A stretch of 64,000 nucleotides of DNA from Proteiniphilum sp. X52 (lineage in GTDB: Bacteria > Bacteroidota > Bacteroidia > Bacteroidales > Dysgonomonadaceae), in the NCBI RefSeq assembly GCF_003712195.1, contig NZ_RDSD01000008.1:1-64000 (forward strand), read 5' to 3'. A program made the translations under genes and the position numbers. The notes under the pieces are model-generated. The model worked only from the letters and a program-made list of their open reading frames with translations. It had not been told where the DNA came from and made no database searches. Each line of letters opens with the position of its first letter. Position 1 is the stretch's first letter. This document shows, piece by piece, positions 34,631 to 38,575 of this stretch.

Positions 34631-34789
34631 ATGCCGGAAGAAGATTATATGGATCATTATTTTTCCATATGCCGTTCGATAGAGATGGCGGACACCACAC
34701 CGGCTCTTGCGACCTACACGAATAGTGAACTTGGGCAAGCGTTCCGCCAGTTAGGAGGACACGGGTACGCTGTTCAGCTCTACTTTTAA
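34631..34789 (+). CDS. short ORF before cas6, unidentified
   Basis: This 52-codon frame starts MPEEDYMDHYFSICRSIEMA and ends 8 bases before cas6. I do not recognise it. It may be a leftover of the gene that once preceded cas6 or a chance frame; an AAGTCCGGC/GCCGGAAG-rich stretch precedes it. Confidence 0.25.
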   Translation: MPEEDYMDHYFSICRSIEMADTTPALATYTNSELGQAFRQLGGHGYAVQLYF

Positions 34790-34797
34790 ATATTTCA

Positions 34798-35532
34798 ATG
34801 ATAAGCCGGTTTGGGAGGATCGGCTCAATTATTTTCTCAGACGATGGAAAAAACAGGTTTTTGTTGATACGTTTTCAAAATGAACTTCCCTTTTCAAAAT
34901 TGGAGTCTTTTCGTGGAGCCATCATTCATGCGTTCAAAGACAAAGATGTTTTGTTTCATAACCACCTTGACAAGGAGGGATTCCGGTATGCCTATCCCAT
35001 GATCCAGTATAAAAGGATCCGTAAAAAGGCAGCCATTCTCTGCATCGAAGCGGGCACGGAAGCTGTGGGTAAGTTATTTCTCGATTCCGATCTGATGTTG
35101 AATATTGCCGGAAAAGAGGAAGCGTTTGTGGTTGAAGGTATAACGGCTTACAAATATCTGATTCAAATTTGGGAGACACGTTTTGTCTATCGCATTCGGC
35201 GTTGGCTTGCCCTGAATCAGGAAAATTACGGACAGTTTCAGCAACTGGAGAGCGTGGCGGAAAAATCGGCCTTTTTAGAAAATGTCCTGAAAGCAAACAT
35301 CTTGTCGTTCGCCAAAGGGTTGGATATCTTTTTCGACCGGCAGGTGGAGTGTAAGATTACCCGTTTGGGCGATCCGGCTGTAATGCAGTATAAAGGAGTG
35401 AAGATGACCGTTTTCGACGCCGAGTTCATCACCAATGTCTCCATTCCCGATTATGTGGGTTTGGGAAAGGGTGCCAGCTTGGGATACGGGGTGACCGTGA
35501 GGAAAAAAGAAAAAACAACACAAAATAGATGA
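34798..35532 (+). CDS. cas6: Cas6-type CRISPR RNA endonuclease
   Basis: The 244-residue protein shows the Cas6 pattern: two ferredoxin-like halves with FRGAIIHAFKDKDVLFHNH and YAYPMIQYKRI in the first, and the C-terminal glycine-rich loop YVGLGKGASLGYG that holds the RNA. The two histidines of VLFHNHLD are candidates for catalysis. Cas6 cuts CRISPR transcripts inside the repeat. The stop overlaps the start of the Cas10-like gene (ATGA), so the two are translated together. The gene itself looks complete. Confidence 0.8.
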   Translation: MISRFGRIGSIIFSDDGKNRFLLIRFQNELPFSKLESFRGAIIHAFKDKDVLFHNHLDKEGFRYAYPMIQYKRIRKKAAILCIEAGTEAVGKLFLDSDLMLNIAGKEEAFVVEGITAYKYLIQIWETRFVYRIRRWLALNQENYGQFQQLESVAEKSAFLENVLKANILSFAKGLDIFFDRQVECKITRLGDPAVMQYKGVKMTVFDAEFITNVSIPDYVGLGKGASLGYGVTVRKKEKTTQNR

Positions 35533-36554
35533 GTATGGGAAAAGAAAAGAAGTACTTGTATGGAGCTGCGGTGCAAGGCATCCAAGGCTTTATCTTTCAG
35601 ACCAACAAACTTCGCGAGATTGTTGGGGCTAGTGAATTGGTAGAGGAAATCTGCACGGATATGTTTGTGGGTTTATTTACTAAAGCCAAAATTAACTATA
35701 AGGATGAAAATTGCATTCTTCATGCTGCGGGCAATATCAAGTATATGTTTGATAATGAAGAAGAGTGTAAAAAAATTGTACGTATATTTCCTAAAATGGT
35801 TGCCGAATTTTCCCCCGGTATCACGGCAAGTCAGGCTGTGGTAAAGATGGAAGGAGCGTTTTCCGATTTTAAGGAAGCTGTCGGGGAGTTGGAGACACGT
35901 CTTCGTGTCCAGCGAAATAAGCCAATGCGTAGTGCCACACTCGGATTGATGGGCATGCTGCGTTGCCGCCAAACCGGATTGCCTGTGGTGTTAAAGCCTA
36001 ATGATAAAGGGAAAAATGACTTGATAGATGCGGGTACATGGGCGAAGCTTTATGAGATTGACAAAAAGAACAATAAGGTAAGGAAAAAAACCACCTTGTC
36101 TTTATGCAAAAAGGCATTTTGTAAAACGGAAGAAGAAAAGAGCTCGCTAAAGGATGATCAGGTGGCATACGATATAGAAAAAATCACCAAGGATAATGAC
36201 TGGATAGCTATCATTCATGCCGATGGCAATGGCTTGGGGCAGATCGTACAGGAAATTGGAAAAGATGAGGATAAGTTCAAGAGATTTTCCGAGAATTTAG
36301 ATAAGGCAACCCAAATGGCAGCGGTAAAGGCTTATAATTCCTTAGAAGATAGAATAAAGGAAAGCAAGATTATTCCTATTCGTCCAATTGTCCTTGGTGG
36401 CGATGATCTTACGGTGATTTGCCGTGCAGATCTTGCTTTGGACTATGTGACCGAATTTATCAAACAATTCGAGGAAAAAACGAAATTTGTTGCAGAGTAC
36501 AAGGATAGATTAGGTTTTGACCACTTAACAGCTTGTGCCGGCATTGGACACTGA
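35529..36554 (+). pseudogene. cas10: Cas10/Cmr2-like protein, truncated after the GGDD palm
   Basis: The frame encodes 341 residues. The N-part (YGAAVQGIQGFIFQTNKLRE, IVGASELVEEICTD) and the second palm domain (IIHADGNGLGQIVQEIG, then VLGGDDLTVI with the GGDD active site for cyclic oligoadenylate synthesis) match Bacteroidota type III Cas10 proteins without an HD domain. After LTACAGIG the homology ends, where a full Cas10 has more palm and a C-terminal helical domain. The TGA stop lies inside the CRISPR repeat that begins at 36549, so a deletion has joined cas10 directly to the array. All other type III subunit genes are absent. Confidence 0.8.
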
Positions 36555-36662
36555 ACGTATCTTCCACTGAAATAAGGATTAAGACTGTGGAAGGATGTGA
36601 CATCCCACAGGAGATAATTCTCACTGAACGTATCTTCTGTAAAAAGGATATTTAAAATCGAC
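36549..36662 (+). CRISPR. CRISPR array relic: one repeat, one spacer, one degenerate repeat
   Basis: The first repeat is 37 nt (36549-36585). It begins CACTGAACGTATCTTC, continues CACTGAAATAAGGA and ends TTAAGAC, giving an ATTAAGAC handle like those of type III crRNAs. A 36-nt spacer follows (36586-36621). The next unit starts at 36622 with the same 16 bases and then decays (TGTAAAAAGGATATTTAAAA), as terminal repeats often do. The 73-base period and the adjacent cas6 and cas10 support the call; only one spacer is left. Confidence 0.75.
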
Positions 36663-37188: not shown

Positions 37189-37213
37189 CATATTGTAGTA
37201 TGTATCAAGAAAA

Positions 37214-38575
<1,362 letters not shown>

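Follow-up and report, generated by a model that had tools for sequence, protein, structure and literature searches.

A truncated cas10 joined to a CRISPR repeat in Proteiniphilum sp. X52, the probable remnant of a type III-D locus

The window analysed here (the whole stretch of 64,000 nucleotides at the start of contig NZ_RDSD01000008.1 of Proteiniphilum sp. X52) contains a cas10-like gene whose stop codon lies inside a CRISPR repeat, which raises the question of how a type III gene came to be joined to an array and what the remaining pieces could still do. The gene is preceded by a complete cas6 (34798..35532, forward strand, 244 aa) with Cas6b-type N and C domains, and the two frames share the 4 bases ATGA. 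The cas10 piece (35529..36554, forward strand) comprises the 5' two thirds of a type III-D gene, including most of Palm2 and a GGDD motif at residues 290–293 (DNA from 36396), and is cut after residue 339. At the junction (36547..36549), cas10 homology extends to the G at 36546, the unassigned bases GA follow at 36547–36548, and a 37-nt repeat, CACTGAACGTATCTTCCACTGAAATAAGGATTAAGAC, begins at 36549 on the forward strand and runs to 36585, with the TGA stop of the cas10 frame (36552–36554) formed by its bases 4–6. A sole remaining spacer of 36 nt (36586..36621) separates this full repeat from a degenerate last repeat (36622..36659, also forward). The sequence-only reading of this stretch had described the overlap, the motif, the stop within the repeat and the single spacer before a degenerate final repeat, all of which were reproduced; its start at 34798 also holds, while the feature ends near 36659 instead of 36662.

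Identity and truncation of the gene pair

The identity of both genes is clear from profile searches. Cas6 matches Pfam Cas6b_C (9.5e-35) and Cas6b_N (2.5e-23) and the PADLOC Cas6 model (3.4e-50), and Cas10 matches PADLOC PDLC02058, Cas10d (E 2.5e-119, 397 bits), which places it in the III-D lineage. By these sequence matches the subtype of the remnant is III-D, a refinement of the earlier assignment to type III. The best PDB sequence match of Cas10 is 8s9t_C (4.5e-29), a chain of what we take to be the Synechocystis type III-Dv complex; the likeness runs to residue 376 of 575, and the C-terminal part that follows is missing from the window. No HD domain was matched by Pfam in the window Cas10. 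The structural study of that complex states that the majority of III-D Cas10s have, by prediction, no HD domain, that the HD pocket of the Synechocystis protein is disrupted, and that its helical C-terminus extends along the Cas7 filament of a complete, multi-subunit complex (PMC11026444). In contrast to the protein described there, the window Cas10 stops before the helical C-terminus.

The point at which the gene is cut can be placed to within a few bases. When aligned with eight Cas10s of 488–607 aa, the window protein follows them through ACAGI, ending at residue 339, and then breaks off; residues 340–341 consist of junction and repeat, with the repeat supplying the last codon (CAC) and the stop. 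Where the window reads GGA, seven of the eight relatives have GC[ACT] (Ala) and one has TCT. The Pfam Palm2 match stops at profile position 99 of 133, and neither this search nor the alignment with the eight relatives found a complete Palm2 or a C-terminal part, with 34 Palm2 profile positions and the remaining C-terminus gone.

An open frame of 341 aa with an intact GGDD could also belong to a family of short stand-alone GGDD proteins carried with a mini-array and without any history in a full type III locus; a short GGDD family was part of what the sequence-only reading had named as overturning a deletion. A scan of contigs with the single protein returned no relative, and an alignment-based scan returned 152, from which the best 80 were taken. 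Among these best 80 of 152, 78 Cas10 frames are uncut by a contig end, and 76 of them span 476–607 aa; the other two, of 427 and 138 aa, are broken genes, and none of the 78 ends near 341. Together with a last codon supplied by the repeat, these lengths leave such a family a negligible probability, and the 341-aa protein is a truncation of relatives of about 500 aa. Several other III-D cas10 genes in the order are broken as well, one followed by phage- or Mu-like genes as judged by eye (L074, 7764–9038), one by stops and shifts (L148, 5281–5688) and one joined to unrelated DNA (L154, 252–737). A plasmid search with Cas10 returned 11 records with a distant relative, 24.3–34.8% identical.

The repeats point to the same subtype. 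The repeat finder did not list the window pair, probably since the second copy is degenerate, and the copies were for that reason compared directly: the first 16 bases of the last repeat are conserved and the remainder diverges, with 25 of 37 positions alike. The window thus holds two direct repeats around one regular spacer, an array of the form R-S-R' with a period of 73 nt; spacing in the relatives' arrays is 65–78 nt among the values listed. Several of those arrays also have a last repeat whose 3' side is degenerate, which is why the window piece is taken as the trailer end of an array. The full repeat agrees with the array repeat of an intact III-D locus (G119) at 25 of 37 positions, including all of the last 14, and 37-nt repeats with this 3' end adjoin intact type III-D loci, where they stand within arrays. 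With one full and one degenerate 37-nt repeat and the same 3' end, the window array is III-D-like, and the deletion idea withstands a comparison with known repeats. Folding of three repeats as RNA gave no significant hairpin. For the spacer, a blastn search of 36580–36630 for a phage origin gave no match, one 23-mer and two 20-mers had no exact match in viral contigs, and the plasmid search returned three Rhizobium records only, at E = 4, which were taken as chance.

Loss of the locus and the rest of the genome

In the intact locus of G119 (L024), the genes run cas6, cas10, Cas7, Cas5, Cas7, Csx19, Cas7, two Card1-like CARF proteins, cas1, a primase-like gene and cas2, followed by an array of 37-nt repeats, and 12,486 bases separate the point of cas10 equivalent to the break from the first repeat. 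The III-D loci of Bacteroidales (G119/L024, G453/L017 and Porphyromonas uenonis L105) resemble the window in that cas6 and then cas10 head the operon, in 37-nt repeats ending AAGGATTAAGAC where the stretch includes such a repeat, and in the degenerate last repeat of several arrays. Unlike them, the window has no genes beyond two thirds of cas10, has one spacer left, and has cas10 directly meeting a repeat. Arrays of at least 3 repeats, sought with one repeat pattern, were found in 14 loci among the best 80 of 152 relatives, many of whose stretches do not extend far enough to include an array. The array is oriented as cas10 is in 11 of the 14, lying downstream of cas10 in seven of these 11 and upstream only in four.

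Set beside these loci, the window very probably preserves what is left of a once complete type III-D locus from which all sequence between codon 340 of cas10 and the last full repeat has disappeared, most simply by one deletion. The ancestor would have had the order cas6-cas10-cas7-cas5-cas7-csx19-cas7-CARF effectors-cas1-primase-like gene-cas2-array, as in the intact relative, an order that is uncertain because in some relatives the array is found upstream of cas10. This ancestor we infer from Cas10s that are 37–63% identical to the window protein (the best 80 of 152 relatives), besides one broken piece at 70%. The sequence-only reading had proposed a single deletion from within cas10 to the array: the loss of III-D genes and array is borne out by comparison with relatives, and that it was one event we infer, since the 101 family genomes searched yielded no intact sister locus. 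The few repeats and the want of a working cas operon recall orphan CRISPR arrays such as those that one report describes in Bacteroides fragilis (PMC5704556). The window array differs from the orphan arrays of that account in that it remains joined to part of the operon that was lost.

The genome (99.97% complete, 96 contigs) was searched for the missing genes with models for RAMP, Card1-CARF and CARF-HEPN proteins. The RAMP backbone model for Cas7 and Cas5 (PF03787) has no match genome-wide and matches in four of 14 control genomes; on the intact L024 it finds three of the four Cas7/Cas5 genes above the cut-off and Cas5 weakly, below it (0.0039). The absence of effector subunits, which the sequence-only reading had noted for the window, thus extends by this model to the genome. 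Neither the Card1 CARF model (PF23400), a weaker negative with a control match in one of 14 genomes that fell below the cut-off, nor the CARF-HEPN model (PDLC01824), with matches in two of 14 controls, has a match genome-wide. Without a Cas7 or Cas5 match in the genome, and with a Cas10 that lacks the end of Palm2 and its C-terminal part, what remains can hardly form a type III effector complex; with no Card1-type or CARF-HEPN effector found, a cyclic oligoadenylate signal would have no receiver of these types.

Arrays are often collapsed by assemblers, and with 96 contigs the join of cas10 to the array might itself be a misassembly. However, no contig carries a RAMP, Card1-CARF or CARF-HEPN match, and outside the two local copies the first half of the repeat is absent, so there is no second place that could mislead an assembler. 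Hence the probability of an artefact is very slight. A lost piece hidden in an assembly gap is possible, though the contig spans the junction.

The window repeat was found nowhere else in the genome. The 24-nt pattern TTCCANTRNAAYAAGGATTAAGAC, of which about 2e-6 occurrences would be expected by chance in the genome, was found once, and on another contig the 3' end recurs a single time, over 14 nt and with a mismatch; the reversed control pattern scored 3 there. The sole Cas1 match belongs to a separate system on contig C11 (L028, 4499–16394), which also matches Cas6_C (4.3e-25), Cas3 C (3.3e-29), Cas4 (1.2e-47), Cas1 (3.1e-91), Cas2 (3.0e-20) and the Cas7-like DevR (1.9e-7); its Cas5 and Cas8 candidates have no Pfam match. 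Its array consists of at least 30 identical copies of a 30-nt repeat unrelated to that of the window and continues up to the contig end. Judged from gene order, we take the system to be I-B-like, and it has its own Cas6, Cas3, Cas4, Cas1, Cas2 and array.

These results bear on whether cas6 and the GGDD fragment have been kept as a working module, for crRNA processing of other arrays or for making a signal. Both frames are open and retain most of their near-invariant residues, and undecayed frames of this kind do not alone exclude use. Against a retained module stand the lack of the window repeat elsewhere, save for the one mismatched place, a second system that has its own Cas6 and an unrelated repeat, the negative Card1-CARF and CARF-HEPN searches, and the loss of the end of Palm2 with the rest of the C-terminus, so that retention for use is very improbable. 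In particular, the suggestion of the sequence-only reading that the leftover Cas6 might process arrays elsewhere in the genome finds no support in the arrays found. On the deletion reading, Cas6 may still be produced and may cleave the transcript that encodes it at the single well-preserved repeat, but it has no known partner to serve.

Genomic site, distribution and age

The remnant occupies a variable site. It is flanked by a small histone-like gene and by enolase (both by eye), and stretches of eight congeners match the window from about 37189–37224 onward, which by eye corresponds to the enolase end. The stretch from G051, alone among the eight, is also alike on the other side, up to 34592, and has in the interval a sulfatase-like gene (by eye) and no CRISPR piece; this other gene between 34592 and 37189 is the reason that the site is considered variable. 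Just 5' of cas6, window 34631–34789 holds the open tail of an unknown protein (MPEEDYMDHYFS...), perhaps a further remnant, and a comparison of this tail frame (~34631–34789) with the loci of the relatives gave no convincing match.

Within the family, two of 101 genomes have a Cas10 match, these being the window genome and one weak case (E 2.9e-4), and an order-wide draw of 393 genomes gave 11, the window genome included. Two of the best 80 of 152 relatives (L101 and L115, Cas10 48% identical) carry the label Dysgonamonadaceae, and should this be the host family, it does contain full-length Cas10 genes, in genomes beyond those searched.

The retained frames were compared with their relatives at conserved columns, leaving out of the Cas10 set four of the 80 loci (L074, L120, L139 and L148) as broken or cut, and using for Cas6 53 of the 62 relatives with a match. 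Window Cas10 departs from the consensus at two of 82 columns conserved at 90%, equal to the median of 77 sequences and with the junction codon accounting for one of them, at one of 61 at 95% (rank 51 of 77) and at one of 37 at 98% (rank 72 of 77), hence it is not flawless. Cas6 departs at two of 32 columns at 90% (rank 36 of 54) and at none of 18 at 95%. Because neither retained frame shows clear decay, the loss was probably recent. In itself the remnant is ordinary, and the sequence-only reading of it was essentially right; it represents one more case of CRISPR-Cas loss, probably caught early, since the remaining genes look undamaged.

A second fusion and the position of the junctions

What is new here is a separate cas6::repeat fusion in a congener. 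A Cas6 search of 39 genomes of the genus gave one match besides that of the window, in G072 (L153, 4033–4312), where the first 57 cas6 codons run directly into a 37-nt repeat, followed by a 36-nt spacer and another repeat with slight changes. As in the window, a cut cas gene sits directly on a repeat, with one spacer and a changed second repeat; in contrast to the window, the cut gene is cas6 instead of cas10 and the surroundings are other. The two full repeats are identical at 32 of 37 positions, and 33 of 52 aligned residues of the cas6 piece are identical to window Cas6. The G072 fusion is taken as a separate event because it differs from that of the window in which gene is cut, in its 11 kb of surroundings and in its repeat. 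The G072 piece is slightly nearer the cas6 of G039 (38 of 57). In G039 itself (L183, 740–1863), a cas6 about 61% identical to that of the window is followed by a gene for an HD-domain-like protein and then by a transposase-like gene (by eye); the HD-domain-like protein has weak matches to Cas3-HD (2.1e-6) and Cas10 (5.9e-6), and cas6 genes of this kind may pair with different type III effectors.

A search for further fusions covered the family and the order. The repeat pattern occurs in eight of 101 family genomes, two of which, those of the window and G072, have a fusion; the repeats of G002 and G037 follow cas2 or a primase-like gene, those of G039 and G091 start at contig edges, and G092 has a single repeat with no cas match nearby. 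In G038 (L180, 122–817), a HigBA-like toxin-antitoxin pair (by eye) lies between two repeats, and the stop of the second gene is inside a repeat. Order-wide, the pattern occurs in 28 of 393 genomes, including the window genome and G092. A tblastn search with 45 cas proteins, in which short cas fragments above E 1e-3 could escape, found no further cas::repeat fusion in 15 stretches from 14 of these 28, with two of the stretches (L214 and L221) reaching back no further than about 130 and 330 bases from the first repeat. The upstream sequence was read for nine of the 15 stretches and for G092, and stretches around an intact cas10 were fetched for G119, G287, G349, G352 and G453, five of the 12 remaining pattern genomes.

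In both fusions the cut gene meets the repeat at or near its first base. In G072, cas6 abuts the first base with one shared C (an offset of 0 or 1 base), and in the window the two bases GA intervene (an offset of 2). If junctions fell uniformly over the 73-nt unit, the chance of two such positions would be about 0.0017 within 3 bases and 0.0047 within 5, values that were computed after seeing the data and concern two cases. The gap before the repeat is next to nothing in both fusions, unlike in the eight loci with cas2 ahead of the array, where about 120 to 1,470 bases separate the end of cas2 from the first detected repeat: 123 in G119, 278 in G002, 224 in G366, 158 in G161 (which contains a further repeat end), 391 in G202, 1,417 in G269, 1,328 in G257 (with a broken cas2) and 1,467 in G103 (which contains another gene).

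These positions suggest a route by which CRISPR-Cas loci could delete themselves, in which Cas1-Cas2 would handle a free 3' end in a cas gene like the end of a prespacer and attach it to the 5' border of a repeat, in place of spacer insertion. A study of a type II system has Cas1-Cas2 joining the 3' end of a prespacer at the repeat 5' border (PMC6895254), and it is because this border is the Cas1-Cas2 joining site that the two junctions suggest integrase joining. The expected product, if this is true, would be a cas-gene::repeat fusion that is in the sense orientation and has neither leader nor spacer remnant at the join, as in the window and G072. The explanation is nevertheless doubtful. It is weakened because the usual target is the leader-side repeat, yet both remnants keep one spacer, and one-spacer remnants under integrase joining need short arrays or later contraction; further, the window junction is two bases off, and no third fusion was found in the stretches examined. 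The wider value of the observation is that separate fusions, each placing a cut cas gene against the opening bases of a repeat, occur in two species of one genus, and should further fusions cluster at the repeat 5' border, the integrase would be implicated in losing its own locus. A search of the literature returned no report of such cas::repeat fusions, a negative limited to that search. A deletion of another form, internal to the adaptation genes and next to long arrays, is found in G257 (L225, 6345–6736), where the start of cas1 (residues 1–87) runs into the end of cas2 (114–157).
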